DNA from: Candidatus Ruthturnera sp. Tsphm01 | Lineage (GTDB): Bacteria; Pseudomonadota; Gammaproteobacteria; PS1; Pseudothioglobaceae | Reading direction: 5' to 3' | DNA length: 64,000 nt | NCBI GenBank assembly: GCA_030142985.1 | Contig: CP125320.1 | Span: 997,639-1,061,638 of the forward strand | In this document: piece by piece, positions 4,383 through 32,399 of the stretch | How positions within the stretch are numbered: position 1 is the stretch's first letter | Layout: every line of letters begins with the position of its first letter | The notes under the pieces: model-generated | Seen by the model: the letters and a program-made list of their open reading frames with translations, nothing else | Database searches by the model: none | Told to the model about the DNA's origin: nothing | Translations under genes and position numbers: made by a program

Positions 4383-4724
4383 CTATTTTTTATTTGATTT
4401 ATCAGGTGCACACTCCTCTTTTGGTGGCTCGTAGTTTGGGTCATTTGGGTTCATAAACACAAAGTGATAATCGCTGTCTTTATCTATTTGGTCAAAATCC
4501 ACTACCATGCCTTCAAGTAATTCTTTTTGCTCATAAGCAAGAATATATTCAATACCATTAGATTGAAGATGAATATCACCATTATTACGATCATCAAAAC
4601 CCATTAAATATTGGAAACCATCATCGGTTTTATCAACAGCGAAGCGAATTAACAGCCCTTGGGTTTCTGGATTATGGGTTGATAAGATAATTTCATCCGC
4701 TGCTTTTTTTGTAATAGTAATCAT
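4383..4724 (-). CDS. dsrR: DsrR, IscA-like protein of the dsr operon
   Basis: The 113-residue protein has the HesB/IscA A-type scaffold fold pattern (ITITKKAADEI, GLLIRFAVD, YLMGFDD, and a VDFDQIDKDSDYHFVF-like strand). It lacks the three conserved cysteines of true iron-sulfur carriers; the only Cys is in the C-terminal tail (EECAPDK). Loss of those cysteines is known for DsrR. In Allochromatium it is linked to expression or maturation of Dsr proteins rather than to Fe-S transfer. It is the last gene of the dsr operon, and its start overlaps the dsrN stop by 4 bases. Its position at the end of the cluster supports the name. Confidence 0.85.
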   Translation of the reverse strand: MITITKKAADEIILSTHNPETQGLLIRFAVDKTDDGFQYLMGFDDRNNGDIHLQSNGIEYILAYEQKELLEGMVVDFDQIDKDSDYHFVFMNPNDPNYEPPKEECAPDKSNKK

Positions 4725-6085
4725 GGTTTTTGTTTTTTAATCTTACTTATAAAATTAACAAATTGCACAACCCACTCATTGCCCGCCACGTTACGTAAGT
4801 GTGTATACGAAGCTAAAAGGTTGTGCTTAATAATACCATCAAACTCATTATCAATACCCACGCCACGCAAAACCTTAAAAGCATAGCGTGTATTGGTGTT
4901 AAGATTTTTAAGTTTTGAGTAGTGAAACTCGTGAGCATAAATATGCTTAGACACACCAAGCCAACAATGCTCATCGGTTGGCGCTAACTCAACATAACCC
5001 CTGCCAATAGGTTTGGGTGTCATGTGCGTATCTGCATCAATCACACCTATCATTGGATGGGTTTGTTCATTGTAGGTAATGCTATTGGTTAAATACATCA
5101 AGCCACCACATTCCACGTACGTTGGCAGACCTTGTTCTATTTTAACTTTAATATCTTCTAATAAGGATTGATTGGCATTTAACGCTTTAAGTTGCATTTC
5201 TGGAAAACCGCCGCCGATAAATAACCCATCACATACTGGCAAATTATTATCTTTAAGTGTGTCAAAATATTTTATGTTAACACCTAATGATTCAAATTTA
5301 TCCAAATCATCTTGGTAATAAAAACCAAATGCACTATCTTTAGCAATAGCAACCGTTATTTTTTCCTTGATTGTATAAGTCTTAATAATTCTCTTATTAG
5401 GTTTAATACAATTCAAATTCATTAATGCATTAAGGTCAACTTGGTCGGAGATAATACTGGCAACTTTGTTGATAAAGGTTTGCGATTGTGGTGTTTCATT
5501 GGCAGGCATTAAACCCAGATGACGCTCATCAATTACCAGTGATTTAGAGCGACGCACACAGCCCAACACAGGAATATCAGTGTAATACTCAATGGCTTGA
5601 ATTAATTTTGACTCATGACGCTCACTGGCTACTTTATTAAGGATAACACCGGCAATATCTACATTTTTATCAAACGCCTGATAGCCACTAAGTAGTGGTG
5701 CAACACCACGAGTAATGCCTGTGCTGTCAATCACCAATACCACAGGAATGTCTAACAATTTAGCAAGATCAGCATTGGCGTCACCACCAGTAACACTCAT
5801 GCCATCAAACAAGCCTTTATTGCCTTCAACAATAGTAAGGTCACTATTGATATTTTGATTGTTATACAATTGAATAATTTCATCATCAGTCATGTTGTAA
5901 AAATCTAGGTTATAACAAGGGTTGCCACTGGCTTGAGCAAGCCAAATAGGGTCAATATAATCAGGTCCTTTTTTAAAGGCTTGAACCTTTAAAGATTGTT
6001 GTTTAAATGCAGCGCACAATCCCAAACTAACGACAGTTTTGCCTGAGGATTTATGAGCAGCAGATAAGTAAAATGATGAAGGCAT
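4721..6085 (-). CDS. dsrN: DsrN, cobyrinic acid a,c-diamide synthase-like siroheme amidase
   Basis: The 454-residue protein has a CobB/CbiA architecture. An N-terminal P-loop-like amidation domain (AAHKSSGKTVVSLGL, KKGPDYIDPIWL, VEGNKGLFDGM) is followed by a class-I glutamine amidotransferase domain with YVECGGLMYL carrying the nucleophilic Cys and a late HEFHYS segment. In dsr clusters this protein is believed to amidate siroheme to the siro(heme)amide cofactor of DsrAB. It could in principle act in cobalamin synthesis, but no cob/cbi genes are nearby. It lies 31 bp after dsrP and is coupled to dsrR by a 4-base overlap. Confidence 0.9.
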   Translation of the reverse strand: MPSSFYLSAAHKSSGKTVVSLGLCAAFKQQSLKVQAFKKGPDYIDPIWLAQASGNPCYNLDFYNMTDDEIIQLYNNQNINSDLTIVEGNKGLFDGMSVTGGDANADLAKLLDIPVVLVIDSTGITRGVAPLLSGYQAFDKNVDIAGVILNKVASERHESKLIQAIEYYTDIPVLGCVRRSKSLVIDERHLGLMPANETPQSQTFINKVASIISDQVDLNALMNLNCIKPNKRIIKTYTIKEKITVAIAKDSAFGFYYQDDLDKFESLGVNIKYFDTLKDNNLPVCDGLFIGGGFPEMQLKALNANQSLLEDIKVKIEQGLPTYVECGGLMYLTNSITYNEQTHPMIGVIDADTHMTPKPIGRGYVELAPTDEHCWLGVSKHIYAHEFHYSKLKNLNTNTRYAFKVLRGVGIDNEFDGIIKHNLLASYTHLRNVAGNEWVVQFVNFISKIKKQKP

Positions 6086-6116
6086 TATCTGCCTTTATTA
6101 ATTAAATGTGATTAAC

Positions 6117-7319
6117 TTAACTTTTATGATGAGGATTAGAAACTTCATCAGCAAGGCTCTCAGGTAAAAATGGTAAAAATTTTATCAAGAATGTAACCGC
6201 AATTAAAGCCAGCGCAATACCACCAACACCTAAAATTATTTCAGGCAATGACGGTGTATATGACACAATACCGCCATAACCTTCTAAAATCTCCTTACCT
6301 GGAAACATTTCTAATGGATAAGCTTGGCCACCAATAATTAACACATACATTTGAATAAAACCACCAATAATAACCAACATCGATGCTAGACCTAATATTG
6401 AACGATTACCCTTAGTTGCTGGATGATAAATTAATATCAGTGGCACGATTGAGCCTAATATGATTTGTCCATACCAAAATAAATTGGTATAGATGCTATC
6501 CATAGAAAATAAAATCATTTCCACATTGTTGTTTTCAGCAAGATAGATATTGCCCAGATGAAACACAATTGCAAAATACAAAACAGCTGCCACAAAAACA
6601 CCTAATAGGTTAGCCAAACGATTAACAATAATATCGCCAAGTTTTCTATCTGTCCATTTATAACTTGCCATTAATATTAATAAATAAAATGCCAAACCAA
6701 AAGAAAACGACATGACAACAAATTTAGGCGCCATAATCATAGCATCATAAGTATGGCGAGCAACCAATAAACCAAAAATAGAGCCTGTGCCTGTGGTTAA
6801 TACCAAACGCCAAACAAACGCCACCATTCCAAGTTTTTGGCTAAATTTATTCATTCTTCGTTCAAACATCATCCACAAATATATAGCAACAATAACAAAA
6901 AAGCCGTTATATAAAATAATATTCCAAGCAAAGATTGATTTAAAATTATACTCAGTCATGGCAACAATTAAACGGTCTGGGCGACCTAAATCAAGCACCA
7001 ATACCATTAAACCACCTGCTAATAATGACAACGCAACCAATCCAGATAAGCGTGATAAAGGTTTATATATTTTCTTACCAAATACAGAAGAAATAGAGGC
7101 CACGTTTAGCGCACCACTCGCCGCTACTATCAAAAACAAAGCAAATACATGTGGCATACCCCACACAATACGATTGCTCATACCAGTTACAAAATGGCCA
7201 TGGTGTTCCATATAGTACATACTACCTAGTGCGGCTAAAACCAAAATCCCCAACCCTGCAACTAGCACATAAAACCCTAGGCTTTTTCCTTCAATTTGCT
7301 CAAAACGAATATTGCTCAT
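6117..7319 (-). CDS. dsrP: DsrP, NrfD-family membrane quinone-interacting subunit
   Basis: This is the integral membrane subunit of the DsrMKJOP complex and exchanges electrons with the quinone pool. The 400-residue protein has about ten hydrophobic helices (for example WGMPHVFALFLIVAASGALN and the last helix near residues 365-385) and short charged loops. It matches NrfD/PsrC-type anchors, which carry no bound heme. It follows dsrO by 25 bp in the order O-P, where O is the periplasmic ferredoxin partner. No truncation is seen. The assignment rests on fold pattern and strict synteny. Confidence 0.92.
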   Translation of the reverse strand: MSNIRFEQIEGKSLGFYVLVAGLGILVLAALGSMYYMEHHGHFVTGMSNRIVWGMPHVFALFLIVAASGALNVASISSVFGKKIYKPLSRLSGLVALSLLAGGLMVLVLDLGRPDRLIVAMTEYNFKSIFAWNIILYNGFFVIVAIYLWMMFERRMNKFSQKLGMVAFVWRLVLTTGTGSIFGLLVARHTYDAMIMAPKFVVMSFSFGLAFYLLILMASYKWTDRKLGDIIVNRLANLLGVFVAAVLYFAIVFHLGNIYLAENNNVEMILFSMDSIYTNLFWYGQIILGSIVPLILIYHPATKGNRSILGLASMLVIIGGFIQMYVLIIGGQAYPLEMFPGKEILEGYGGIVSYTPSLPEIILGVGGIALALIAVTFLIKFLPFLPESLADEVSNPHHKS

Positions 7320-7344
7320 AAAATTCCCAAATTAAATTTATTAT

Positions 7345-8076
7345 TTAAATACCGCTATAGCGCACGCCAGTATTTAGGTTAAGGTCTGCTCTAATTTGTG
7401 TAGATTGAACTGTTTTCAAAGTTTGACTTATTTGACTTGATGCATCATACAAATCACCAAAAATAACAGCATCACTGTTTACACTCACAACACAAGCAGG
7501 TGCCTCGCCTTTATCAACCTTGTGTACACACATCGTGCAAGCCTCAACCGTGCCTTTGCCACGAGGCATGTGTTCTTTTTGATTACTTAGCGTTTCATGT
7601 ACAAATGATCGCGCGTCATACGGACAAGCCATCATACAATAACGACAACCAATACATAAATGTTTATCTACTAATACAATGCCATCTTCGCGCTTCATGG
7701 AAGCATTTGTTGGACAAACATCAACACAAGGTGGCTCTTCACAATGCTGACACATGAGTGCAAGATTGCTAATTTTTCCAGTGGCTTTATCTTTAACTTT
7801 TAGTTTTTTAATCCAGTCTGGTCTTTGAGCGCCTGTTGAGTGCACTTCAGAACCCCAACCTTGTTCTTGTTGACAAGCACTAACCATGCCATCAATATCA
7901 GCCTCAGTTAACTTGTTGGTATCAATCAACATACCCCAACGTTTTTCATTGGTAACTGGCACCTTGTTGGCACTAGCAAATGTTGTGAGTGTAATGCCAC
8001 TAGCAACTGTGGCAACGCCAATCGTTGCTGCGCTCGTGGTTTTGATAAAATCGCGACGATTTAATGTTTTATTCAT
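7345..8076 (-). CDS. dsrO: DsrO, periplasmic Tat-exported ferredoxin subunit
   Basis: This is the iron-sulfur subunit of DsrMKJOP that relays electrons on the periplasmic side. The ATG at 8076 is preferred over the longer frame because it begins the twin-arginine signal (NRRDFIKTTSAATIGVA) and forms an ATGA overlap with the dsrJ stop. Four cysteine clusters follow: CQHCEEPPCVDVCP, CIGCRYCMMACPYDARSF, CTMCVHKVDKGEAPAC, plus isolated Cys, as expected for a four-[4Fe-4S] NrfC/HmcB-type protein. At 243 residues it is near the normal length. Its place between dsrJ and dsrP is canonical. Confidence 0.93.
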   Translation of the reverse strand: MNKTLNRRDFIKTTSAATIGVATVASGITLTTFASANKVPVTNEKRWGMLIDTNKLTEADIDGMVSACQQEQGWGSEVHSTGAQRPDWIKKLKVKDKATGKISNLALMCQHCEEPPCVDVCPTNASMKREDGIVLVDKHLCIGCRYCMMACPYDARSFVHETLSNQKEHMPRGKGTVEACTMCVHKVDKGEAPACVVSVNSDAVIFGDLYDASSQISQTLKTVQSTQIRADLNLNTGVRYSGI

Positions 8077-8456
8077 AAAAAACCTTCCTTTGGTGTCGTG
8101 CGGTGACAACTAAAGCAGTCAAGGCTAACACCGACTTGTTGATGACAATCTGAACAAAATTGACCTTTCTTATCAACTGAATGGTACTGATTGTTTGTCT
8201 TATTTTTATTAGCATGGCACGATACGCAACCTTTTAAAGAATATTCATCCGTTCGCACACCTTGGCGCAAGGTTTTATCACGCTTATGGTGTAAAAATTC
8301 AGGATGCATTCTTCGAATAATCGAAATACTTTGGTGAAATACTTTGCCAGACGCCTTAATGGAACTAGCCTGCTTGCCAAGATTAGCATGTTCGTTAGTA
8401 TGCGCAAACACACTACCTACCAACAAACTTAAAAAAACAACCAACAAACGATTCAT
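8073..8456 (-). CDS. dsrJ: DsrJ, periplasmic triheme cytochrome c
   Basis: This is the triheme c-type cytochrome of DsrMKJOP, proposed to take part in redox chemistry of the sulfur substrate in the periplasm. The 127 residues start with a signal sequence (VVFLSLLVGSVFA). Exactly three CXXCH heme motifs follow: CVSCH, CSDCH and CFSCH. The upstream RRMHPEFLHH region, conserved in DsrJ, is present. The only cysteines in the protein are the six in the heme motifs, whereas the well-studied Allochromatium DsrJ uses an extra Cys as an unusual distal heme ligand. The stop overlaps the dsrO start by 4 bases. It follows dsrL. Confidence 0.92.
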   Translation of the reverse strand: MNRLLVVFLSLLVGSVFAHTNEHANLGKQASSIKASGKVFHQSISIIRRMHPEFLHHKRDKTLRQGVRTDEYSLKGCVSCHANKNKTNNQYHSVDKKGQFCSDCHQQVGVSLDCFSCHRTTPKEGFL

Positions 8457-8485
8457 AATTTTTATTCCACTTAGATTAAATCGGG

Positions 8486-10450
8486 CTACTCACCAAGACC
8501 CATTTGAATATACCCAGCTGGGCAAACATCAGCACAAATATGACAACCAATACACTTGTTGTAATCAGTGTCAACATATCTGCCTAACGTTGCCTTATCT
8601 TTCTTAACTTTAAATACCGCATCTTGAGGGCAATACATCACACAGTTATCACACTCAAAACACAAACCACAAGACATGCAACGATCCGCTTCTTTTTGCA
8701 CTTCCTCTTTAGTATAACCAATCAAACGCTCATCAAAGTTACCTAATACGTTATCAACATCCACCAATTTGTGGTTGCGCTGATTGCGTTGTTCATGTTC
8801 AAAATGACCTAAGAACAATTCTGTATGTGGAATGATGGACGCAAAGGCACGATCTTCATAATTATGCACCGCAAAATCAGCAGTATCTGTTGAGGCTGCA
8901 ATATCAGAACCTTGCTCATAAGACTCAGGAGAAAGATCCCACTCTTTTAACTTATCCATTAAATCAAAATAACTAACATCAACCTTAGGACGAGTGTGCT
9001 GATCAGAACCCGCAAGATAATCACCAATACTTTCAGCAACAATTGATGCTTGACCAATGGCGGTTGTTAATAAGTGTGGACGAACCACATCACCACAAAC
9101 AAAGAAACCTGGTTTATTAGGCACTTGGTAGTTCTTATCTGCATCAATAAATCCATGCTCATTGAAGAATGAAGTATCCATGCCCTCAGAATCAACACCT
9201 TGACCAATTGCAGAAACAATCAACTCGCACTCAATATCAAATTCAGAACCCTCAATTGGTGTATCTCCATCTTCTTCTAAACGAATCATACGTAATGCAG
9301 TTGCACGACCATCTTTCCCTATAATCACTTCAACAGGTTGCAACTGACCTTGAATTTCAACACCTTCACGAGTTGCATCATCAATTTCTTCTTGTGCTGC
9401 TGGCATGTTCTCAACAGTAGAGCGTGTTGTTAATAATACATCTGCACCTAGGCGCTTAGAAGTATTAACCACATCATGCGCAGTATCACTAAAAATAATA
9501 TGCTCAGGACGGTCTTTTTCAGCAACATTATTAATATTACCCAAACGACGTGCAACTGATACAACGTCAATTGAAGTATCACCACCACCAATACAAACCA
9601 CCTTGCCTGTAATGTGTTTCAAACGACCTTGGTTGTACGCCTCAAGAAATGCAACACCAGAAACACAATTTGTTGCTTCACCACCTGGGACAGGCAACGT
9701 TCGACCGCTCATAGCACCTATTGCAAATAAAACTGCATCAAATTCTTTTTCTAATTCGTCAATAGTAACATCAACACCAACCTTGGTGTTCATTTTAGTT
9801 TCAACGCCCGTATTGATAATACGATCAATCTCATAAGACAACACATCGCGTGGCACGCGATAATCAGGAATGCCATACATCATCATACCACCCAATTGGT
9901 CGTATTTCTCAAATACAGTTACGCTGTGACCTTGGCGACGTAATTTAAGTGCTGCTGCCAAACCACCACAACCACCACCAATAATAGCAACTTTTTTACC
10001 TGTATCTTTAGCATCAACTTTAAATGTATAACCTTCAACTTTTGCATTGTCACCAATAAACTGCTCAACCGCATTAATACCAACCGTATCTTCGACTTCA
10101 TTACGATTACAACCATCTTCACAAGGCGCTGGACAAACACGACCCATCACTGATGGAAATGGGTTTGAATCTGTAGAACGTTGAAACGCATACTCTTGCC
10201 AAGATAGGTCACCAGAAGGTTTTTCCATACCACGAATAATATCTAACCAACCACGAATGTTATGCCCTGAAGGGCACGAACCTTGACAAGGTGGTGTTTG
10301 AGTAACATAAGTAGGACATTTATGAGAAGTATCTTCTTTAAAAATCTTTTGACTCCATGGTACTGTTTTTAACTCATCGCCATCATCGGTGTATAATCTA
10401 AATGTATGGTTGTCGCCCTTAGTTGGTACGCCATATGGGTTTTTCTGCAT
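8486..10450 (-). CDS. dsrL: DsrL, iron-sulfur flavoprotein NAD(P)H oxidoreductase
   Basis: DsrL is the cytoplasmic flavoprotein that couples DsrAB to NAD(P)H and is essential for sulfur oxidation in Allochromatium. The 654-residue protein has an N-terminal Fe-S region (CPAPCEDGCNR), an FAD-binding AIIGGGCGGLAAALKL, a second nucleotide site VCIGGGDTSIDVV, and the FVCGDVVRPHLLTTAIGQA motif of GltD-type reductases. A C-terminal two-cluster ferredoxin domain carries CMSCGLCFECDNC and CIGCHICADVCP. That C-terminal extension separates DsrL from plain GltD, a copy of which lies at 17-18.5 kb. It sits between dsrK and dsrJ as in other sulfur oxidisers. Confidence 0.94.
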   Translation of the reverse strand: MQKNPYGVPTKGDNHTFRLYTDDGDELKTVPWSQKIFKEDTSHKCPTYVTQTPPCQGSCPSGHNIRGWLDIIRGMEKPSGDLSWQEYAFQRSTDSNPFPSVMGRVCPAPCEDGCNRNEVEDTVGINAVEQFIGDNAKVEGYTFKVDAKDTGKKVAIIGGGCGGLAAALKLRRQGHSVTVFEKYDQLGGMMMYGIPDYRVPRDVLSYEIDRIINTGVETKMNTKVGVDVTIDELEKEFDAVLFAIGAMSGRTLPVPGGEATNCVSGVAFLEAYNQGRLKHITGKVVCIGGGDTSIDVVSVARRLGNINNVAEKDRPEHIIFSDTAHDVVNTSKRLGADVLLTTRSTVENMPAAQEEIDDATREGVEIQGQLQPVEVIIGKDGRATALRMIRLEEDGDTPIEGSEFDIECELIVSAIGQGVDSEGMDTSFFNEHGFIDADKNYQVPNKPGFFVCGDVVRPHLLTTAIGQASIVAESIGDYLAGSDQHTRPKVDVSYFDLMDKLKEWDLSPESYEQGSDIAASTDTADFAVHNYEDRAFASIIPHTELFLGHFEHEQRNQRNHKLVDVDNVLGNFDERLIGYTKEEVQKEADRCMSCGLCFECDNCVMYCPQDAVFKVKKDKATLGRYVDTDYNKCIGCHICADVCPAGYIQMGLGE

Positions 10451-10471
10451 ATCAAATCTCCTTATATTCGT

Positions 10472-12046
10472 TTAAGTTTCTGATGTTTCTACCGATGTAA
10501 CATCATCAGTATCAGTTTGTGGTTTGTCCATAATAATCGCCTCACTCACCAGTTGGTGAACGCTCACAATCATGTATGGATCAAAATCAAATTTAGGTAG
10601 TACTTTAGAAAACTGTGACTTACAAATGGCACAAATGGCAGCCAATGTATTAACTCCATTATCTTTTTCAACTACTTTCAGTGCTTGCATTCTTGGTACT
10701 GCACCTTTCACACGAATCTCCATTAAATCGTCTGTTAATAAACCACCACCACCACCGCAACAAAAAGTAACCTCCTTAATTGTACTACGCTCCATGTCAA
10801 CATAATTATTACACACAGCTTTAATAACGTCACGTGGCAAAATAAATTGACCGTCTGGAATGCCGCCCATATTAGTTGCACGGGCAACATTGCACGAATC
10901 ATGGAAAGTAACCGTACGATCATCATTAGCAGACTTATCAAAAGCTAACTTACCTCTTTGAATTAAGTCATGGGTATATTCAATAATATGTTGTGGTTGA
11001 GGATAGCGATGATCTAGTTGGTCTTGTAATTTTTGAGCAAATTCGTCAGTAGCGCCTGCACCTACACCCGATAAAGTATTCCAAAAACTATAAGCAACAC
11101 GCCAAGCATGCCCACACTCACCTACCATAACCCGTGACACTTCTAAATCAAGTGCAGCCTTACGAATACGTAAAGCAGCCTTACGCATCACATCATAAGA
11201 GCCAATAAACATGCCAAAGTTTGCGCCTTCAGAGGCATATGAACTTAACGTCCAACTAACACCATCTTGATGAAACACTTTGCCATAACCGATTAAACCA
11301 TCGATATGAGGTTCGGCAAAAAAGTCTGCTGATGGGGTGATTAATAAAATTTCTGCACCTTTTTGGTCTAGTGGGTATTTAACAGCAACTCCGCCTGTCT
11401 CTTCTTCAATTTCTTCTTCAAGGTCAAGTAATGTATCACGCAAAGCTGGTTCAGGCAAACCTAAGTTATTGCCAATTGTTAAAGCCTTGCCTAAAATTTG
11501 ATTGCAATATTTTTGACCTATACCAACCGCATCTAACACCTCACGGGCTGCCATTGAAATTTCAGCTGTGTCAATGCCGTATGGGCAGAATACTGAACAA
11601 CGACGACACTGTGAACACTGATGAAAATAGTTATACCAATCATCCAGCATGTCATCGTCTAATTCTTTAGCGCCTACCAATTTAGGGAAGTATTTACCTG
11701 CAAAAGTAAAATGGCGACGATACACACTTCTAAATAAATCTTGACGTGCAACTGGCATATTTTTTGGATCTGAAGAACCTAAAAAATAATGACATTTATC
11801 GGTACAAGCACCACATTTAACGCACGAATCTAAAAACACTTGTACAGAGCGATATTTAGACTTAAGTTCGCCTATTTTATCAATAGCAACTTGCTGCCAA
11901 TTGTCTACTTTTTTACCAGGAAAACCTAATGGGTTTTGAAACTCTTGTACAGATTTAAATGGCCCTTCGCCATCCATAATACCTTCTTTTAACTCAGGAA
12001 TTTCAAGATAAGTGGGTAATACTGGAATATCAAATTCTTTTGCCAT
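10472..12046 (-). CDS. dsrK: DsrK, heterodisulfide-reductase-like subunit
   Basis: This is the cytoplasmic catalytic subunit of DsrMKJOP, thought to reduce or oxidise the DsrC trisulfide/disulfide. It has 524 residues. Two [4Fe-4S] motifs near the N-terminus (CVKCGACTDKCHY, CSQCRRCSVFCPYG) precede HdrD-type CCG elements, including HDSCNVAR, FCCGGGGGLL and the late CAICKSQF, which bind the special catalytic cluster. It is 1 bp from dsrM, its membrane partner, so coupled expression is likely. No key residue is missing. The interaction with DsrC is known from the family. Confidence 0.94.
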   Translation of the reverse strand: MAKEFDIPVLPTYLEIPELKEGIMDGEGPFKSVQEFQNPLGFPGKKVDNWQQVAIDKIGELKSKYRSVQVFLDSCVKCGACTDKCHYFLGSSDPKNMPVARQDLFRSVYRRHFTFAGKYFPKLVGAKELDDDMLDDWYNYFHQCSQCRRCSVFCPYGIDTAEISMAAREVLDAVGIGQKYCNQILGKALTIGNNLGLPEPALRDTLLDLEEEIEEETGGVAVKYPLDQKGAEILLITPSADFFAEPHIDGLIGYGKVFHQDGVSWTLSSYASEGANFGMFIGSYDVMRKAALRIRKAALDLEVSRVMVGECGHAWRVAYSFWNTLSGVGAGATDEFAQKLQDQLDHRYPQPQHIIEYTHDLIQRGKLAFDKSANDDRTVTFHDSCNVARATNMGGIPDGQFILPRDVIKAVCNNYVDMERSTIKEVTFCCGGGGGLLTDDLMEIRVKGAVPRMQALKVVEKDNGVNTLAAICAICKSQFSKVLPKFDFDPYMIVSVHQLVSEAIIMDKPQTDTDDVTSVETSET

Positions 12047-12047
12047 G

Positions 12048-12821
12048 TTATTCGTCCTTACCTAAAGTTTGCTCTAGTCGTGTTGCATGCTCTTGTTCTT
12101 GCTTGAGTGCCCAAGGTGAAATGTGGCGCTTTGAGCGAGCATCATCCACTTGGTTTCGTGTCGGGCTAAAGAAAATACCTGGCACGTGTAATAATTTAGA
12201 AATCGGGAAAATTGCCATCAGTACAAATACCAAGAAGATATGTACTAAAAAATGCACTTCTGTTGGTAGGTTTGCCCAATTAAAACTCACCAAGCCTGAT
12301 GCAAATTCCTTCACCATAATAATGTCTGTATGATTACTGGTAAATGTCATTACAGCGCCACTTATACCAATAATGAGCAACATAATTAACATTAAATAAT
12401 CACTAGGCGCTGAAATATAACGAATGCGCTCAACAAAAATACGGCGTAACATGAGCCCAACAAGGCCAATCACCATGGCAAAAGCAGCATACTTAAATGG
12501 TTGAGTTAATAAAAAGATACTAGGCAAATCACCTAGCCAAAAATAGCGTATATGACGAATTAAAACTAACAATAGACCTATATGAAACAACCAGCCAAAT
12601 AACCAAATCCATTTGTTTGATTTGAACAGGCTTTCAAATAAGACCACTTCGCGCATCATGCGCATAACCACACCTGTTTGCGTTAACGGGGTTGGTGCAG
12701 TGGGAATTTTAAGGGGAGCTGGCGTTATCCAAAATTGATAGATTTTTCTCGCCATTCCAATAAGGAATGCAATCAGTGAAATATAAAATAAAGCGGTAAA
12801 AAAAATGCTTATTACAGACAT
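12048..12821 (-). CDS. dsrM: DsrM, NarI-like membrane cytochrome b subunit
   Basis: This is the membrane diheme cytochrome b partner of DsrK. The ATG at 12821 (MSVISIFF) is preferred because a GAGAG ribosome-binding site precedes it. The longer frame to 12860 would start inside the terminator hairpin. The 257-residue product has five to six hydrophobic helices and several membrane histidines (LFGWLFHIGLLLVLIRHIRY, EVHFLVHIFLVF) suited to heme b ligation. Its C-terminal tail is charged and cytoplasmic. It is followed after 1 bp by dsrK. A strong intrinsic terminator lies between dsrC and this gene. Confidence 0.92.
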   Translation of the reverse strand: MSVISIFFTALFYISLIAFLIGMARKIYQFWITPAPLKIPTAPTPLTQTGVVMRMMREVVLFESLFKSNKWIWLFGWLFHIGLLLVLIRHIRYFWLGDLPSIFLLTQPFKYAAFAMVIGLVGLMLRRIFVERIRYISAPSDYLMLIMLLIIGISGAVMTFTSNHTDIIMVKEFASGLVSFNWANLPTEVHFLVHIFLVFVLMAIFPISKLLHVPGIFFSPTRNQVDDARSKRHISPWALKQEQEHATRLEQTLGKDE

Positions 12822-12848
12822 ATTACTCTCAAATTCAATGGTTAAAAA

Positions 12849-12877
12849 ATTTAAAAACACCCACCGAAGTAGGTGTT
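12849..12877 (-). terminator. Intrinsic terminator between dsrC and dsrM
   Basis: On the minus strand the sequence AACACCTAC-TTCG-GTGGGTGTT forms a 9-bp stem (one G-T pair) closed by a UUCG tetraloop. A T-run follows it at once. It lies 18 bp past the dsrC stop and 28 bp before the dsrM start, inside the dsr operon. The form is that of a rho-independent terminator. Partial read-through would give more dsrA-to-dsrC transcript than dsrM-to-dsrR transcript. Confidence 0.82.
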
Positions 12878-12895
12878 TTTATTGCTTGTATCGAC

Positions 12896-13219
12896 CTAAA
12901 TACAACCAGTTGGTTTTGGCAACCCGGCAAAACGACAACCTTGCTTACCAGGACCATATGGAAACAAAGTATACAAATATTTAGAGTTGCCTTTGTCTTT
13001 ACCCATTCTTTTAGCGATTGCTTTAGTTAGTACACGTACTGCAGGTGCAATTTGGTACTCTTCAAAATAATCACGCAAAAAATTAATCACATCCCAATGT
13101 TCATCACTTAAATCAACATCGTCATCTTTTGCCATTTGTTCAGCAATTTCTTTAGTCCAATCACTCAAATCTACCAAGAAACCTTCTTCATCTACTTCTG
13201 CGCCTAAAATATCAGCCAT
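12896..13219 (-). CDS. dsrC: DsrC, sulfur carrier protein
   Basis: DsrC carries sulfur as persulfide/trisulfide between DsrEFH, DsrAB and DsrK. The start at 13219 (MADILGAEVDEEGF) is set by GGAG 9 bases upstream and the usual ~107-residue length. The longer open frame to 13309 runs into dsrH. The flexible C-terminal arm holds both functional cysteines, in KQGCRFAGLPKPTGCI: the penultimate one that carries sulfur and the one ten residues before it. This distinguishes true DsrC from TusE-like homologues that have only one. A terminator follows directly, consistent with separate high-level expression. Confidence 0.96.
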   Translation of the reverse strand: MADILGAEVDEEGFLVDLSDWTKEIAEQMAKDDDVDLSDEHWDVINFLRDYFEEYQIAPAVRVLTKAIAKRMGKDKGNSKYLYTLFPYGPGKQGCRFAGLPKPTGCI

Positions 13220-13247
13220 TTTTTTTACTCCTATATAAAAATTTAAG

Positions 13248-13544
13248 TTAAACCCAAGAAACCGTAGTTCCATGTTCAACAACCAAATCAACAAAGCCTG
13301 CATAATCAACTAATTTGATATTATCAGCAAGCTTTGAAGAAATTCCTCTTGCTTCGACATCACCCTGAAGCGCATAAACTCTACCTTGAGCGGCAAGATC
13401 AGCAATCATTGGTGAGTTGGTATTTTTCGCAGCAGAAATAACACCATCTTCAATTAATAAAATAACGCTTGTGTTATCAATTGTATTAAGACAAGATTTG
13501 AGTGAATTTCGCTCGAAAGATGATTTATTAACAGTATGTAACAT
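13248..13544 (-). CDS. dsrH: DsrH, sulfurtransferase subunit
   Basis: This is the TusB-like subunit of the cytoplasmic DsrE2F2H2 sulfur-relay hexamer that passes persulfide sulfur to DsrC. The 98-residue product shows the family pattern MLHTVNKSSFERNSLKSC, with the conserved DsrH cysteine, and ILLIEDGV. The ATG at 13544 is preferred over the TTG two codons upstream because GGGGG lies 7 bases before it. It follows dsrF by 12 bp and precedes dsrC by 28 bp. Confidence 0.93.
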   Translation of the reverse strand: MLHTVNKSSFERNSLKSCLNTIDNTSVILLIEDGVISAAKNTNSPMIADLAAQGRVYALQGDVEARGISSKLADNIKLVDYAGFVDLVVEHGTTVSWV

Positions 13545-13556
13545 ATTCAATCCCCC

Positions 13557-13961
13557 TTAGAAACTTAAACATACGTCTTGTTCAGACATAATTTTTGAAA
13601 GTTGTGCATTAGAAACCACTTTAATACTTGGTTTTTCTGCCCAATCATCGTCTTCATCTTCATATGCTAAAGGCATTAAATCATCCACATTTAAACCCCT
13701 TTCTTCTAAAGATTCTGCTGATACGTAAAGTTTATTAATGTCATAATCACCCAATGCATGGAAGGTTTTAGAAAAATTCTTCATGCCAATACCATCGGCA
13801 TTTTGACCTTCAACAATTTGGTATACACCATCATCAATAAAAGCCAAGGAAACATCTTGTTCGAATGCCGCAGCAATTAACACCACTTCTAGCGACTCAA
13901 TTGCATACACCGTGCCAAATGAAGAGCGACGATTTAAATACATAAATTTCTTAGTTGCCAT
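13557..13961 (-). CDS. dsrF: DsrF, sulfurtransferase subunit
   Basis: This is the TusC-like subunit of DsrEFH, 134 residues from the ATG at 13961 (MATKKFMYLNRR), which has GGAG nicely spaced before it. The longer frame adds only four residues inside dsrE. The AFEQDVSLAFIDDGVYQI segment is typical of the family. No Cys is present in that segment; the only Cys is near the C-terminus (EQDVCLSF). In the studied complexes the active-site Cys is in DsrE, so this is not evidence of loss of function. It starts 1 bp after dsrE ends. Confidence 0.92.
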   Translation of the reverse strand: MATKKFMYLNRRSSFGTVYAIESLEVVLIAAAFEQDVSLAFIDDGVYQIVEGQNADGIGMKNFSKTFHALGDYDINKLYVSAESLEERGLNVDDLMPLAYEDEDDDWAEKPSIKVVSNAQLSKIMSEQDVCLSF

Positions 13962-13962
13962 C

Positions 13963-14364
13963 TTAATCTCCAAATACCACTAAACGATCGGACTGAATGC
14001 CCGCTTCAATCAACTGACCCAAGCCAGAAATACGAAATGCTGGATGGATATTGTTACCATCAATACCATTCTTACTTGCCTCAGATTCATCTAGCATACC
14101 ACGACGAAGTGCTGCTGCTATACACACAACAAGTTCAGGCTCACCATCGACGTTCTTAATACCTAATTCTGCCCACTGGTTGACAACATTACGATCATCT
14201 TGTGGTGGCAATGTAAAACGTGATGCATTATTCACACCATCATGATAGAAAAATACACGGAAAATTTCATGGCCTTTTTCAATCGCTGCTTTGGCAAATT
14301 GGTACGCCGTATCAGATGCTTGATGCTGGTACGGTCCTTCGTTAATTTGAATAGAAATCTTCAT
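13963..14364 (-). CDS. dsrE: DsrE, active sulfurtransferase subunit
   Basis: This is the TusD-like subunit of DsrEFH that carries the catalytic persulfide. The 133-residue protein starts KISIQINEGPYQHQ and has the catalytic Cys in PELVVCIAAALRRG. The GLGQLIEAGIQSDRLVVFG C-terminus is the usual family ending. It follows dsrB by 12 bp and leads into dsrF. The presence of all three subunits plus a two-Cys DsrC marks the pathway as oxidative rather than sulfate-reducing. Confidence 0.95.
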   Translation of the reverse strand: MKISIQINEGPYQHQASDTAYQFAKAAIEKGHEIFRVFFYHDGVNNASRFTLPPQDDRNVVNQWAELGIKNVDGEPELVVCIAAALRRGMLDESEASKNGIDGNNIHPAFRISGLGQLIEAGIQSDRLVVFGD

Positions 14365-14376
14365 AATAATATATAT

Positions 14377-15450
14377 TTAGAAACGAATATGCGCAGAAGA
14401 ATTCAACTCATGACGCGCACCTTTCCAATCATTGATATGGAATTTAGTGAACGGCAAGCCTGTCTTTTCAAAAAATGCTGTCCAGCCAATGCGATCAACC
14501 CATTCACCCATTCTTTCCCAATCACGGGCATCTTCCTTATAAACAGATAAAATATTCTTAACCACAGCAGCAACTTCCGGCCATCTAGGTGGGTTGTTGG
14601 GTAAATTAGAAACCACTAATTTATGGAACGAGGGCTTAGATCTTGCATTTGAGTTTTTGCCACCAATCCACAGTGCAATCTTAGAGTGTTCAGGATCATT
14701 GATTTGCATCGGCGGGCATGGCGGGAAGCACGCACCACAACAAATACATTTCTTCTCATCCACTTCCAATGTTGGCTTGCCATTAACCATCGCAGGACGA
14801 ATTGCTGCAACTGGACAACGTGCAACAACAGTTGGACGCTCACACACGTTAGCCACTAAATCATGGTTAATTTTAGGTGGTTTAGTATGTTGAATGTTAA
14901 GCGCGATATCGCCTTGACCACCACAGTTAATTTGACAACAAGAAGTTGTCATGTGTACACGGTTAGGCATCTCTTCATGTGTAAACTCCTCATGTAATTC
15001 ATCCATGAGTGACTTTACAATACCTGAGGCGTCTGTACCTGGAATATCACAATGCAACCAACCTTGAGTGTGTGAAATCATGGTTACCGATGGACCTGTG
15101 CCACCTACAGGAAAACCTGCTTCAGTTAATGCCACAATTAGTGGCTCAACCTTTGCGCCATCAGCCACCATATACTCAACATTAGAGCGCATGGTAAAAC
15201 GAACAAATCCATCTGCAAATTCATCAGCAATATCAGCTAATTTTCTAATGGTGTAAACATCCATTTGACGTGCAGTACCACAACGAACCGTCCAAATTTC
15301 TTCATTATTTTTTGAAGTGTGGTGCAACACACCTGGACGAGGACGGTCATGATAAGCCCATTGTCCGTAGTTACGACGCATCGTCGGGTGCATGTATTGA
15401 ATAGGATCAGGGCAACCTGATTCGATGGGCATTCTTGGTGCTTCAGCCAT
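14377..15450 (-). CDS. dsrB: Reverse dissimilatory sulfite reductase beta subunit
   Basis: DsrB pairs with DsrA in the alpha2-beta2 siroheme enzyme that oxidises sulfide/persulfide sulfur to sulfite in the cytoplasm. It has 357 residues, the family norm. Cysteines in SCCQINCGG and CERPTVVARCPVAAIRP match the siroheme/[4Fe-4S] region. A ferredoxin insert follows (CICCGACFPPCPP). The GGTGPSVTMISHTQGWLHC segment is the usual DsrB substrate region. A GGAG lies upstream of its ATG. It is separated from dsrA by 72 bp containing a small hairpin. Confidence 0.96.
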   Translation of the reverse strand: MAEAPRMPIESGCPDPIQYMHPTMRRNYGQWAYHDRPRPGVLHHTSKNNEEIWTVRCGTARQMDVYTIRKLADIADEFADGFVRFTMRSNVEYMVADGAKVEPLIVALTEAGFPVGGTGPSVTMISHTQGWLHCDIPGTDASGIVKSLMDELHEEFTHEEMPNRVHMTTSCCQINCGGQGDIALNIQHTKPPKINHDLVANVCERPTVVARCPVAAIRPAMVNGKPTLEVDEKKCICCGACFPPCPPMQINDPEHSKIALWIGGKNSNARSKPSFHKLVVSNLPNNPPRWPEVAAVVKNILSVYKEDARDWERMGEWVDRIGWTAFFEKTGLPFTKFHINDWKGARHELNSSAHIRF

Positions 15451-15477
15451 TTTATTTCTCCTAGTATATAAAATTAT

Positions 15478-15494
15478 GTGAGACTTACTCTCAC
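15478..15494 (-). other. Small hairpin between dsrA and dsrB
   Basis: GTGAGA-gtaag-TCTCAC on the minus strand forms a perfect 6-bp stem with a 5-base loop in the dsrA-dsrB spacer. No T-run follows, so it is not an obvious terminator. It may protect or process the mRNA between the two subunit cistrons; that is only a guess. Confidence 0.4.
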
Positions 15495-15522
15495 TTTAAA
15501 AATTGTTATCTAAATAATGTGC

Positions 15523-16824
15523 TTATGCACTTGCCTCTGCTTTATTTTCAAACCACTTAACAGCCTCTTCGTCCCATGTATCCATACGAACGTAAGATGA
15601 AGTACGTGTAGAATTAACCATATTGGGGTCTACATTAAGACCAATACCTTCAAGAAAGTTAACCACACCAATACGCTCAATCATTTCACCAGTTCTTTCG
15701 TGCTCTAGTGCGTTTTCAGCAAAGAAATCAATCACTTCACCTGCTAAATCTTCAATCGTTTCAAAGTCATCTGCCGTGTCCATTTTCATAAATGGCACAA
15801 CCACTGAACCAAACAAGTCGCCAATCTTAAGTGTACGCTTACCACCCATGACAATCATCACACCTTTATCATCGCCCGTTGCTAAGATAGGCTCTACATT
15901 GCCTTTGGCAATATACTTATGAGTTAAAGGGCTGGTAACATTTAAACAATGCATACATTTAACACAGTTCTTGTTATCAATTGTAATTGAATCATCTTCA
16001 TTAAGTGTCATCGCATTAGTAGGACAACGAGAAGTAATATTGTCAACAACATAACTACGGCCTTTGTCTGCAACCATTGCCTTCCACAAGTCTTGATTAA
16101 CTTTAATGTCGTCTCTCCAAGTTCCAATAACTGCAAAGTCAGCACGTTGAACTGTATTCATACAATCGTTTGCACAACCTGACACTTTAAATTTCATTTT
16201 GTATGGTAATGCTGGGCGATGCATGTCATCTAAAAATGCATTAACCAAGGTACGCAAAACTGCTTGCTCATTAACATTTGACATCTCACAACGTGAAGCG
16301 CCAACACAAGACATGCCTGTACGTACTGCAGGACCAGCGCCACCCAAGTCAAAACCATAATCATTAAATGTATTAAAAATAGTCTGTGTTGTTTCTTCAG
16401 TCGCACCTTGTAACATGATATCGCCTGATTGACCATGAAATGCAATCAAGCCAGAACCGCCGTTATCTACAAACATATCACACATGTCTCTTAATAAAGT
16501 TGATGTGTAATGCATGCCTGCTGGTGGTTGAATACGTAAAGTATGAAACTCGCCTGCTGCAGAGAACTTATAAGTACCGTCTTCGTTTTTTAATTCATTA
16601 AAACGTGGAATAATACCGCCGCCATAACCAATAACACCAACTGTGCCACCTTTCCAGTAGCCTTTTTTAGTGACATATGAAGTTTCTAACGTGCCCAATA
16701 CGTCACGTGCCATTTCAGCGCCAGCATGACTGTCGCTTGCTAATCTTTTAAGACCTGTAACAAACGAAGGCCATGGACCATTTTCCAACTCATCAAGGTT
16801 AGGTGTGTTATATAACTCTGCCAT
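15523..16824 (-). CDS. dsrA: Reverse dissimilatory sulfite reductase alpha subunit
   Basis: This is the catalytic alpha subunit of rDsr and the first gene of the dsr operon. The 433-residue protein carries the siroheme/[4Fe-4S] cysteines in the C-x5-C and C-x3-C pattern: CVGASRCEMSN and CANDCM. A ferredoxin domain follows (CPTNAMTL, CVKCMHCLN). The start ATG at 16824 has GGAG 8 bases upstream. An upstream region of 142 bp holds a perfect TATAAT. The subunit is intact. Together with two-Cys DsrC, DsrEFH and DsrL it shows an oxidative system; this rests on context, since DsrA alone does not reveal direction. Confidence 0.97.
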   Translation of the reverse strand: MAELYNTPNLDELENGPWPSFVTGLKRLASDSHAGAEMARDVLGTLETSYVTKKGYWKGGTVGVIGYGGGIIPRFNELKNEDGTYKFSAAGEFHTLRIQPPAGMHYTSTLLRDMCDMFVDNGGSGLIAFHGQSGDIMLQGATEETTQTIFNTFNDYGFDLGGAGPAVRTGMSCVGASRCEMSNVNEQAVLRTLVNAFLDDMHRPALPYKMKFKVSGCANDCMNTVQRADFAVIGTWRDDIKVNQDLWKAMVADKGRSYVVDNITSRCPTNAMTLNEDDSITIDNKNCVKCMHCLNVTSPLTHKYIAKGNVEPILATGDDKGVMIVMGGKRTLKIGDLFGSVVVPFMKMDTADDFETIEDLAGEVIDFFAENALEHERTGEMIERIGVVNFLEGIGLNVDPNMVNSTRTSSYVRMDTWDEEAVKWFENKAEASA

Positions 16825-16891
16825 TTTATCTCTCCAATATATTTAAGTAAATCCCCTTAGTTTTTTCCAAAAGAAGATGTGAACGAAACAA

Positions 16892-16897
16892 ATTATA
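16892..16897 (-). promoter_or_regulatory. Probable -10 element of the dsr promoter
   Basis: The 142-bp gap between the small ORF and dsrA contains TATAAT on the minus strand, 68 bases before the dsrA ATG. No convincing -35 stands 16-18 bases upstream, so an activator may be needed. Further upstream (about 16948-16962) lies a CTACCCCCTAAGGGATAG stem-loop, and around 16914-16934 a TACCA...TGGTA inverted repeat; either could be regulatory. All assignments are by eye. Confidence 0.45.
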
Positions 16898-16966
16898 CTT
16901 AAATGAAATAAAATACCAGTGTTTATTAGTGGTATTAACTACTATCCCTTAGGGGGTAGATTGGTT

Positions 16967-17098
16967 TTATTTTTTGAGAATTAAAGCAATAATAATAAAG
17001 CCAACACCTGTTAATGCAGGGGCAATAATGGCATTAGTAATACCAATAGCAATCATGCCAATCGCAACTATTAAAAGTAATATTAGTAAGTATTTCAT
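16967..17098 (-). CDS. 43-residue hydrophobic membrane peptide between gltD and dsrA
   Basis: An ATG at 17098 overlaps the gltD stop as ATGA and opens a 43-codon frame ending TAA at 16967. The product is almost wholly hydrophobic (MKYLLILLLIVAIG..., ending LILKK), with two likely short transmembrane segments around a TNAIIAP turn and a lysine tail placing the C-terminus in the cytoplasm. The 4-base overlap implies coupled translation with gltD. I recognise no family. It lies directly upstream of the dsr promoter region. It could be a small membrane protein or a chance hydrophobic frame. Confidence 0.5.
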   Translation of the reverse strand: MKYLLILLLIVAIGMIAIGITNAIIAPALTGVGFIIIALILKK

Positions 17099-18528
17099 GC
17101 TAGATACTCATTAACTTTAGCAGCAACACCACGACCTTCATTGATAGCCCATACAACTAATGATTGCCCACGGCGACAATCTCCAGCGGTAAAAATGCCT
17201 TTTTGTGACGTTGTGTATTGAGCGTATCTGGCCTTATAATTACCACGCTCATCAAGCTCAATATTGGCATCATCACTTAGATAATGCTCAGGAGATACAA
17301 ATCCCATTGATAATAAAACCAATTGCGTATGCCAAGTTTTTTCACTACCATCAATTTGGGTTAATTGCCCATCTTTAAAATTAACATTAACCGTCTTTAG
17401 GCCAATGACAGAACCTTGGTCATCTTGAATAAACGATTTAGTCATTAAATGGTATTGTCTTGGATCTTTGCCAAGCATTTTTGTTGCCTCAGCGTGTCCA
17501 TAATCAACTCGATAAATAAGTGGCCATAGTGGCCAAGGGTTGTTTGACGCGCGCTCAACTGGCGGCTTGCCCATTAATTCAAAATTCACAATCGATTTTG
17601 CACCTTGACGTAGTGCTGTACCGATACAATCTGTACCTGTATCACCACCACCAATCACAATTACATCCTTACCTTTAGCAGATAAATCTGATTCATCTGC
17701 GCGACCAATATCCAACAAACTTTTGGTATTTTTAGCTAGATATTCCATCGCTAAATGCACGCCTTGTGCTTGGCGATTATTTACCAATAAATCACGCGCT
17801 TTACTTGCACCTGTGGTTAACACAAGTGCATCAAAATCTTGTTGTAATTGTGCGGTGGTAATGTCTTTGCCGACATCAACATTGGTTATAAATTTAACTC
17901 CTGAATCTTGCATTAATTTAACACGGCGATCAACCACATCTTTACCAAGTTTCATATTCGGAATGCCATACATTAATAAACCGCCAACACGATCATCGCG
18001 CTCAAATATAGTAACGTTATGACCGATTTTATTTAATTCATCTGCCGCTGCCAAACCTGCAGGACCAGAGCCAATAATAGCAATTTTTTTACCCGTTCTA
18101 TACTCAACTGTGTAAGGCTTAATCCAGCCTTCATCAAAACCTTTGTCAATAATGGCTTGCTCAATATTCTTAATCGTAACTGCAGGATTATTAATACCCA
18201 ATACGCAAGAGCCTTCGCAAGGTGCTGGACAAACCCGACCTGTAAATTCTGGAAAATTATTAGTTTTTAATAAACGTGTTAGTGCTTCTTGCCATTTATT
18301 ATGATAAATTAAATCGTTAAATTCTGGGATTAGATTATCAACTGGGCAGCCATTTTCTGACTGGCAAAAAGGCACGCCACAATCCATGCACCTTGCGCCT
18401 TGCTCTTGAAGATGGGCTTTATCATGATGCACTGTAAAAATCTCACCATAATCTTTAATGCGCAAATCCACAGGACGATAAGCCTCGGTTTTTCTATCAA
18501 ATTCTTTAAAGCCAGTTACCTTTCCCAT
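17095..18528 (-). CDS. gltD: Glutamate synthase small subunit (GltD-type NADPH oxidoreductase)
   Basis: The 477-residue FAD/NADPH flavoprotein passes electrons to the GOGAT large subunit. N-terminal Fe-S cysteines are in CMDCGVPFCQSENGCP and CPAPCEGSCVLG. FAD binding is at IAIIGSGPAGLAAADEL, NADPH binding at VIVIGGGDTGTDCIG, and the C-terminal IFTAGDCRRGQSLVVWAI is typical. It lacks the ferredoxin extension seen in DsrL. The large subunit gltB is not adjacent. It lies upstream of and in the same direction as dsr, so a dedicated dsr-related role is possible, but GltD is the default reading. Confidence 0.9.
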   Translation of the reverse strand: MGKVTGFKEFDRKTEAYRPVDLRIKDYGEIFTVHHDKAHLQEQGARCMDCGVPFCQSENGCPVDNLIPEFNDLIYHNKWQEALTRLLKTNNFPEFTGRVCPAPCEGSCVLGINNPAVTIKNIEQAIIDKGFDEGWIKPYTVEYRTGKKIAIIGSGPAGLAAADELNKIGHNVTIFERDDRVGGLLMYGIPNMKLGKDVVDRRVKLMQDSGVKFITNVDVGKDITTAQLQQDFDALVLTTGASKARDLLVNNRQAQGVHLAMEYLAKNTKSLLDIGRADESDLSAKGKDVIVIGGGDTGTDCIGTALRQGAKSIVNFELMGKPPVERASNNPWPLWPLIYRVDYGHAEATKMLGKDPRQYHLMTKSFIQDDQGSVIGLKTVNVNFKDGQLTQIDGSEKTWHTQLVLLSMGFVSPEHYLSDDANIELDERGNYKARYAQYTTSQKGIFTAGDCRRGQSLVVWAINEGRGVAAKVNEYLA

Positions 18529-18627
18529 GACAAGTAAATACTCAAATATAAATCTAAAAGATTATGCCATATTTTTCGTAAAATTGCACCACTCAAAAAC
18601 TAGATAAAATTATATAGCGCTCTTGTC

Positions 18628-18656
18628 TTGTTCACTGTTAAAAATAACGGTATAAT
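18628..18656 (+). promoter_or_regulatory. Probable rplS promoter
   Basis: TTGTTC (-35) and TATAAT (-10, 18651-18656) are separated by exactly 17 bases, 42 bp before the rplS start. This fits a sigma-70 promoter with a perfect -10 and a weak -35, and would let rplS be transcribed alone. Confidence 0.55.
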
Positions 18657-18697
18657 TATTTCTTTTTTTATGAAAGTTTATTTAAAGGAACACTCAA

Positions 18698-19051
18698 ATG
18701 AATTTAATTGATCAAATTGAGAACGAACAACTAAGGTCAGATCTGCCTTCATTCACATCAGGCGATACTATTGTTGTACAAGTAAAAGTACGTGAGGGTG
18801 AGCGTGAAAGATTGCAAGCATTTGAAGGTGTTGTTATTGCCAAGAAAAACCGAGGCATTGGCTCAGCATTTACAGTTAGAAAGATTTCTCATGGCGAAGG
18901 CGTTGAAAGAGTGTTTCAAACCCACTCAAAAATGATTAATTCAATTGAAGTGAAACGTAGCGGTAAAGTTCGCCAAGCTAAACTTTATTATCTTCGTGGC
19001 CTTACTGGCAAGAAAGCGAGAATTAAGGAAAAACTCCAACTTAAAAAATAA
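18698..19051 (+). CDS. rplS: 50S ribosomal protein L19
   Basis: L19 sits at the 30S-50S interface. The 117-residue protein is full length with the family signature ([55 protein letters not shown]). AAGGA is well placed before the ATG. It is usually last in rpsP-rimM-trmD-rplS. Here it stands alone with its own promoter and terminator, so the operon has been split in this genome. Confidence 0.98.
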
Positions 19052-19066
19052 GTGGATTTTTTTGAT

Positions 19067-19097
19067 AAAAAATGTCGGTCTTTACCGGCATTTTTTA
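19067..19097 (+). terminator. Intrinsic terminator after rplS
   Basis: AATGTCGG-tcttta-CCGGCATT forms an 8-bp stem with one G-T pair, preceded by an A-run and followed by TTTT. It starts 15 bp after the rplS stop, a classic rho-independent terminator. Confidence 0.85.
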
Positions 19098-19124
19098 TAA
19101 GCCATTATCTGTCATAATTTGGCA

Positions 19125-20006
19125 ATGGATAATTCAATACTCATTGATCAATTTTTAGATAACTACTGGCTTTCATCAGGTGCTAGCAAAAATACGTTAT
19201 CAGCTTATCGCTCTGACCTTAATTTATTTTCAAAATGGGTTAACAAACCACTCACTAATATTAGCGATATACATATTAATCAGTACTTTAATGAGCGCCA
19301 ATCAATATCCATGAGTGCCGCTACACAAGCCAGAATACTCACCTGTTTGCGTATTTTCTACCAACACTTAATTAAACAAAAAATCATTAAAAAAAATCCA
19401 ACTGATAAATTGCACCATCCTAAACAAGCACAAAAACTGCCCGTTTTTTTAAATATTGATGAGGTTGGAAGGCTGCTTAATGCACCTAATCATAACACTA
19501 TTTTTGGCCTGCGCGACCAAGCCATGTTAGAGCTTTTATACGCTTGTGGACTACGTGTCTCGGAATTGATTAATCTGAGTTATCATCATATTAATCTAGC
19601 CGATGAATATATTCGCATTCATGGCAAGGGCAACAAAGAGCGCCTTTTACCAATGGGTGAAATGGCAATGGATTGCTTGGCAAATTACGAGAAAAACGCA
19701 AGACCGTTTTTATTAAAAAATGGTCAAACTGATGGTTATTTTTTAACCAATCGTGGCACCAATATGAGCCGACAAAATTTCTTTTACATCATCAAAGGCT
19801 ACGCATTCAAAGCAGGCATTAACAAACCCTTATCGCCACATACCCTACGTCATGCTTTTGCCACACACCTTGTGCAAAAAGGGGCGGATTTACGCAGTGT
19901 GCAATTAATGCTCGGACATAGTGATATTTCTAGTACACAAATCTACACCCATATTCAAAATATCCAACTTAAATCACAGCATAGTAAGCACCACCCTAGA
20001 GGATAG
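19125..20006 (+). CDS. xerD: Tyrosine recombinase XerD
   Basis: XerD, with XerC, resolves chromosome dimers at dif. From the ATG at 19125 the protein has 293 residues. The SAM-like N-terminal domain (LIDQFLDNYWLSSGASKNTLSAYRS) is followed by the catalytic domain with Arg in YACGLRVSELI, Lys in GKGNKERLLP, HTLRHAFATH, LGHSDI and the nucleophile in STQIYTHI. This frame also opens at a TTG two codons earlier, but the ATG is preferred. The full active-site set is present, and no neighbouring att or integron features suggest a mobile-element integrase instead. XerC versus XerD is judged from overall pattern. Confidence 0.85.
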   Translation: MDNSILIDQFLDNYWLSSGASKNTLSAYRSDLNLFSKWVNKPLTNISDIHINQYFNERQSISMSAATQARILTCLRIFYQHLIKQKIIKKNPTDKLHHPKQAQKLPVFLNIDEVGRLLNAPNHNTIFGLRDQAMLELLYACGLRVSELINLSYHHINLADEYIRIHGKGNKERLLPMGEMAMDCLANYEKNARPFLLKNGQTDGYFLTNRGTNMSRQNFFYIIKGYAFKAGINKPLSPHTLRHAFATHLVQKGADLRSVQLMLGHSDISSTQIYTHIQNIQLKSQHSKHHPRG

Positions 20007-20097
20007 TTATAAATAAATCATGATCTTATACCAAACAAGAGATGATGAATATAGTATAACTATCAATAACTTAAACCTTTAAAACTATTAATATTTA

Positions 20098-20688: not shown

Positions 20689-20718
20689 ATATTGTCTAAA
20701 TCATAACGACACAAACCA

Positions 20719-22130: not shown

Positions 22131-22173
22131 TCTATAAAAATAAGTTTTGTTCGTTTCAAGAAAGAGAGATAAA

Positions 22174-22728: not shown

Positions 22729-22737
22729 AAGGTTCTT

Positions 22738-23004: not shown

Positions 23005-23019
23005 TTTTTTATCCTATTA

Positions 23020-23931: not shown

Positions 23932-23955
23932 TTCCCTCTCCTAGGTTAAAAAAAA

Positions 23956-24864: not shown

Positions 24865-24875
24865 TTTATTCTTTC

Positions 24876-26261: not shown

Positions 26262-26329
26262 GAGGTCTTTGCATAAATTATTTCAATAAAAACTATGAAA
26301 ACTATCGATGAATTAAATGAAAATAATAA
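26262..26329. repeat. Single IS5-type terminal repeat remnant
   Basis: GAGGTCTTTGCATAAATTAT at 26262 differs by a few bases from the GAGACCTTTGCATAAAT termini of the local IS5-type family. No matching right end is seen before the next element begins at 26330. It is probably a truncated miniature copy into or beside which the next one inserted. Confidence 0.5.
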
Positions 26330-32319: not shown

Positions 32320-32337
32320 TTTATTAATTATTTAAAT

Positions 32338-32367: not shown

Positions 32368-32399
32368 ATTGTCTGCAATAATATATATTGCTCTAAGAA

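Follow-up and report, generated by a model that had tools for sequence, protein, structure and literature searches.

The dsr operon in this window (the whole 64-kb stretch of DNA that was analysed) raises the question of why a terminator-like hairpin should stand between dsrC and dsrM, with genes of the same operon on either side. The cluster lies on the minus strand and is composed of an upstream half, dsrABEFHC, and a downstream half, dsrMKLJOP-N-R, as assigned from family searches and gene order, which bear out the claim of an earlier note on this DNA that dsrMKLJOPNR continue on the same strand past the hairpin. Because the NCBIfam matches for DsrM, DsrJ, and DsrP fall under the curated cut-off, these three are named through match plus position. 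The features are as follows, called by family searches and gene order where nothing else is given:

13248..16824, minus strand: upstream half of the operon from dsrA to dsrH
16824-15523, minus strand: dsrA
15450-14377, minus strand: dsrB
14364-13963, minus strand: dsrE
13973-13557, minus strand: dsrF
13550-13248, minus strand: dsrH
13219-12896, minus strand: dsrC, 107 aa, ATG at 13219, stop at 12896 (TIGR03342 and PF04358)
12842..12881, minus strand: terminator-like element with a 13-bp stem (12881-12852), a C(UUCG)G tetraloop, and a T-rich tail to about 12842
12826..12833, minus strand: dsrM ribosome-binding region TTTGAGAG, outside the hairpin, with TTTGAGA invariant across 30 relatives
12821-12048, minus strand: dsrM, ATG at 12821 (NF038037 DsrM, E 4e-46; PF02665; gene order)
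4383..12046, minus strand: downstream half of the operon from dsrK on
12046-10472, minus strand: dsrK
10450-8486, minus strand: dsrL
8456-8073, minus strand: dsrJ
8109-7345, minus strand: dsrO
7319-6117, minus strand: dsrP
6085-4721, minus strand: dsrN-like gene (CobB family), named by family plus position
4724-4383, minus strand: dsrR-like gene (Fe-S biosynthesis family), named by family plus position

The SD of dsrC (AGGAG) is good, and dsrM, as the first gene past the hairpin, opens the membrane-complex half. Genome-wide, three more DsrC/TusE-like genes with 39-42% identity are present at G000:C1 237106, 920164, and 1082223.

The minus-strand hairpin (12881-12852) reads 5'-TAAAAACACCTAC-TTCG-GTGGGTGTTTTTA-3' and is followed by the tail AATTTTTTAA to about 12842. 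Counting the A-U base, the perfect stem spans 13 bp; without the A/T run, it is reduced to a 7-bp core, CACCTAC/GTGGGTG, followed by the U-tract TTTTTAAATTTTTT, and the UUCG loop is closed by a C-G pair. The structure occupies the 74 nt that separate the dsrM ATG (12821) from the dsrC stop (12896), its stem starting 14 nt past the stop and its tail ending about 20 nt before the ATG. The UUCG loop and T-run that the earlier note had described directly downstream of dsrC are thus borne out by the sequence, the terminator scan, and the coordinates; its placement at 12849-12877 was out by a few bases, and the 9 bp that it gave belong to the 13-bp stem.

Within this single genome, the MFE and centroid folds of the dsrC-dsrM gap have the hairpin as their sole stable element, the fold of the region against shuffles has a z of -2.4 (equally good in 5 of 200 shuffles), and the hairpin is the best match in a terminator scan of positions 6000-25000, which gave 24 terminator-like matches against 13.5 expected. 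The d'Aubenton-Carafa score for core plus tail is barely positive (d = 4.4) and becomes negative with longer stems, the borderline score varying with the chosen stem end. The single-genome evidence is modest because several other sites score equally well in our own wider scan of the 64-kb window. Two further readings were dropped: a repeated element, since the 1.52-Mb genome holds one copy of the hairpin sequence when up to 2 mismatches are allowed (similar A-stem-T terminators are present), and an Rfam element, since no Rfam family matched at the hairpin position.

Other features of the window were recorded alongside. A terminator-like hairpin at 19072-19091 (plus strand) follows rplS, with a phage-integrase-family (XerD-like) gene next on the same strand, and is possibly another mid-operon terminator. 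The segment 32035-32369 matches the cspA thermoregulator RNA family (RF01766) and contains a strong A-stem-T hairpin at 32337-32368. Two 153-bp elements (26329-26481 and 35520-35672) are flanked by AGAGACCTTTGCATAA-like inverted repeats and resemble MITE-like non-autonomous copies, although their interiors differ; an IS at 26726-27993 has ends as in these elements and a DDE transposase gene (26888-27910, minus strand).

Conservation in relatives puts the dsrC-dsrM hairpin well above chance. Searches with DsrC yielded 80 loci in public genomes and found matches in 75 of the 83 genomes of the window's family, and dsrC is followed by dsrM in 154 loci, 136 with distinct gaps (genus labels g1-g11 and locus labels with L are the arbitrary numbering of this comparison). 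A hairpin with a U-tract is found in 34 of 35 distinct dsrC-dsrM gaps of genera g1, g3, g4, g6, g9, g10, and g11 and in about 2% (0-3%) of dinucleotide shuffles of these seven genera's gaps, counts that take in related sequences and are not phylogenetically independent. By our own terminator scoring, 36 of 48 loci (g8 and g7 included) reach at least 13 at dsrC-dsrM; in the same 48 loci, that score is reached at none of the dsrA-B, B-E, M-K, K-L, and L-J junctions, at two E-F, two F-H, and five H-C junctions. The absence at dsrA-B (0/24) and dsrK-L (0/25) is found despite gap lengths like those of dsrC-dsrM. Judged from these comparisons, the hairpin is not a product of chance, and the conservation in related dsr operons that had been proposed as a check holds in most genera.

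The exceptions follow clades. The hairpin is found in none of 25 distinct gaps of genus g5, it is without a U-tract in g7, and in g8 (Bathymodiolus thiotrophic symbionts), it is present in 11 of 12 with a tail that is mostly U4-CC(C), so that about half fail the U-tract criterion. Because g5 is without the hairpin and the g8 tail is weakened, a tap at this site would not be essential to a reverse-dsr operon.

Several gaps hold further sequence of their own. Six g8 loci (L008, L009, L099, L013, L120, and L119) have an extra hairpin that follows the dsrC stop directly and precedes the conserved hairpin, and that of L119 has a good U-tract of its own. In another g8 locus, L103, a MITE-like insert of about 200 bp with GAGACCTTTGTATAA-type inverted ends lies between dsrC and the hairpin, and the dsrC-dsrM gap of L130 (g5) contains a MITE-like palindrome of 40 bp whose ends resemble those in L103. 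Viral contigs L159-L179 also carry dsrC, several with a dsrA-like match nearby; most of these phage copies overlap the ORF that follows, and in L169-L171 an unrelated terminator is present. Spread of the hairpin through phage dsrC genes was rejected, as the phage copies are without the host hairpin.

The alignment of 30 relatives indicates the strand on which the structure matters. The seven core pairs are paired in 97.6% of cells, compared with 29-45% in controls with the partner slid 1-3 columns; compensatory changes on both sides occur in five of the seven, and RNAalifold concurs. Wobble cells comprise 39 G-U and 2 A-C, and core pairing on the other strand would drop to 79.9%, so that it is the dsr-sense RNA, and not its complement, whose pairing has been preserved; even in the 1.0-Mb clam-symbiont genomes, where C has drifted to U, the bases are still paired as U-G. 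On this alignment, selection acts on the hairpin as dsr-sense RNA, and the wobble asymmetry speaks against an antisense or DNA-cruciform role. Run lengths of T after the stem (5-7) surpass those of the opposing A in 27 of 30 relatives (mean 6.2 vs 4.2), which argues that the U-tract is retained over and above the demands of pairing. The alignment counts take in related sequences and do not represent independent events. Beyond the stem, the U-tract, and the ribosome-binding region, no conserved sequence was found in the gap alignment.

No consistent sigma-70-like promoter match was found between the hairpin and dsrM in the window or its relatives, and the window and most g1/g9 relatives have not even an 8/12 match within their 73-83 nt gaps. 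A promoter for dsrM inside the gap was therefore rejected, and dsrM-R would need read-through. The search for a secondary promoter upstream of dsrM, suggested in the earlier note, thus supports the read-through route.

The stem, the U-tract, the lack of a consistent promoter after them, and the same-strand genes that are needed together make it probable that the element is a leaky intrinsic (Rho-independent) mid-operon terminator, an attenuator acting as a fixed tap. Transcription from the upstream dsr promoter(s) would run through dsrABEFHC, the hairpin would fold in the nascent RNA once its stem had emerged past the dsrC stop codon, and a large part of the polymerases would dissociate at the U-tract, leaving a short mRNA that ends just past dsrC and whose 3' end the hairpin would also shield. 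The remaining polymerases would read through into dsrMKLJOPNR, with dsrM using its own ribosome-binding site. The outcome would be a step-down in message, with DsrC on the favoured side, from the soluble sulfur-carrier/sulfite-reductase half to the membrane-complex half. From these sequence features we infer termination, its partial extent including the fraction released, and a purpose in stoichiometry. Since dsrM is served by a strongly conserved ribosome-binding region of its own, the step would lie in the message rather than in translational coupling; masking of that region by the hairpin was rejected, as it lies downstream, outside the stem. The earlier reading of an attenuator after dsrC would thus be largely right in kind, the element being a conserved and probably leaky terminator.

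The alternative that survives best, although rather unlikely, is an intercistronic mRNA-stability element as in Rhodobacter puf, where polymerases would read through, the transcript would be cut downstream, and the hairpin would block 3'-5' exonucleases so that dsrABEFHC (or dsrC) outlives dsrM-R. It draws on the intercistronic-hairpin precedent (Klug 1987, in PMC6238624), on the g8 and g7 hairpins with a poor or no U-tract, and on Proteobacteria outside the Thioglobaceae, where no dsr junction is more structured than dsrC-dsrM (mean z -2.1; 33/63 < -2) and a GC-rich hairpin often lies 8-17 nt past dsrC with few T behind it. In other Gammaproteobacteria, the hairpin often stands without a U-tract, which points to a function independent of termination, and the pattern favours a puf-like stability role in those bacteria. 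The wider structure pattern is suggestive only, because intergenic windows are generally more structured than coding ones; dsrA-dsrB outside the Thioglobaceae is also somewhat structured (mean z -1.8, 22/55 windows with z < -2, compared with 2/24 in Thioglobaceae). Against stability as the role in the window stand the conserved 5-7 U directly after the stem, which are unneeded for exonuclease blocking and exceed the opposing A-run. The intrinsic terminator proposed between dsrC and dsrM accordingly keeps its hairpin, U-tract, and conservation, while the U-less hairpins elsewhere lend weight to an mRNA-stability role, and the dsrC hairpin may stabilise mRNA and terminate at once. A broader and doubtful idea is that a structured 3' boundary after dsrC is general and repeatedly re-evolved in reverse-dsr operons, taking the form of a terminator with a U-tract in the AT-rich Thioglobaceae and of a GC-rich hairpin without one in other lineages; it would set the DsrC to DsrMKJOP ratio, perhaps tuned to sulfur status.

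Far less probable than these is a full terminator that divides the cluster into two transcription units, with dsrM-R expressed from a promoter of their own overlapping or after the hairpin. Some g10 genomes have 9-10/12 promoter-like matches between hairpin and dsrM, and the g8 gaps of 100-280 nt are long enough to contain one; the short gaps of the window and most g1/g9 relatives, with no sigma-70-like match, and the short distance from tail to dsrM ATG in the window speak against it, and any dsrC-internal promoter would itself read through the hairpin. Still more remote is a regulated attenuator, in which a protein or antitermination factor would shift the termination fraction according to sulfur status. 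Its site within a sulfur-regulated operon and a regulatory role proposed for DsrC (mentioned in PMC7787665) would suit it, but the MFE and centroid folds of the short gap show no alternative antiterminator fold, and nothing besides stem, U-tract, and ribosome-binding region is conserved. A chance hairpin or functionless relic, for which the AT-rich genome, the similar-scoring hairpins elsewhere in the window, and the g5 gaps might speak, is scarcely credible in the face of the conservation, covariation, strand asymmetry, and shuffle rate.

In the reverse-dsr pathway, DsrC is the carrier of the sulfur substrate, and reports on related symbioses rank it with the most abundant symbiont proteins or sulfur transcripts. 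A conserved tap after dsrC would be a possible way for uncultured SUP05-type bacteria and bivalve symbionts to set the ratio of carrier to membrane complex, and in metatranscriptomes, counts of dsrC (or dsrABEFH) would then be a poor stand-in for the DsrMKJOP complex. The literature search found no paper joining dsrC, the dsr operon, and a hairpin, and a search on dsrC, dsrM, and terminator returned only species descriptions. A terminator after dsrC would be a known kind of element whose site appears unreported in the literature searched; what is new is that most genera of the family keep it at this point of the reverse-dsr operon, together with its clade-wise loss and weakening.

Among known systems, the Allochromatium vinosum dsr operon is alike in gene order and in a dsrC transcript level that stands apart from the rest (Grimm 2010, in PMC3397948, PMC11267869). 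There, dsrEFH and dsrC transcripts exceed dsrA (PMC3397948), and PMC11267869 lists dsrC as the least changed among the dsr genes given and credits its separate level to an additional dsrC promoter. That promoter sets the A. vinosum operon apart from the present one, and a terminator after dsrC is not described in the papers found. The published data, which come from other Gammaproteobacteria and not from Thioglobaceae, fit a raised dsrC level. The puf operon of Rhodobacter has an intercistronic hairpin and differential decay of its mRNA segments (Klug 1987, in PMC6238624), and both hairpins lie between a segment for an abundant product and one for a less-needed membrane complex, with differential message predicted. 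Unlike puf, where decay acts and no terminator is needed, the dsrC hairpin has a conserved U-tract. It would also differ from a classical regulated attenuator, as neither a leader peptide nor, in the MFE and centroid folds, an alternative fold was found, and it would act as a constitutive tap. Intrinsic (Rho-independent) terminators can act as leaky mid-operon terminators or attenuators, and the dsrC hairpin resembles these in its GC-containing stem, its C-G-closed UUCG loop, its U-tract, its site after the gene of a highly needed small protein, and the same-strand genes that lie beyond it.
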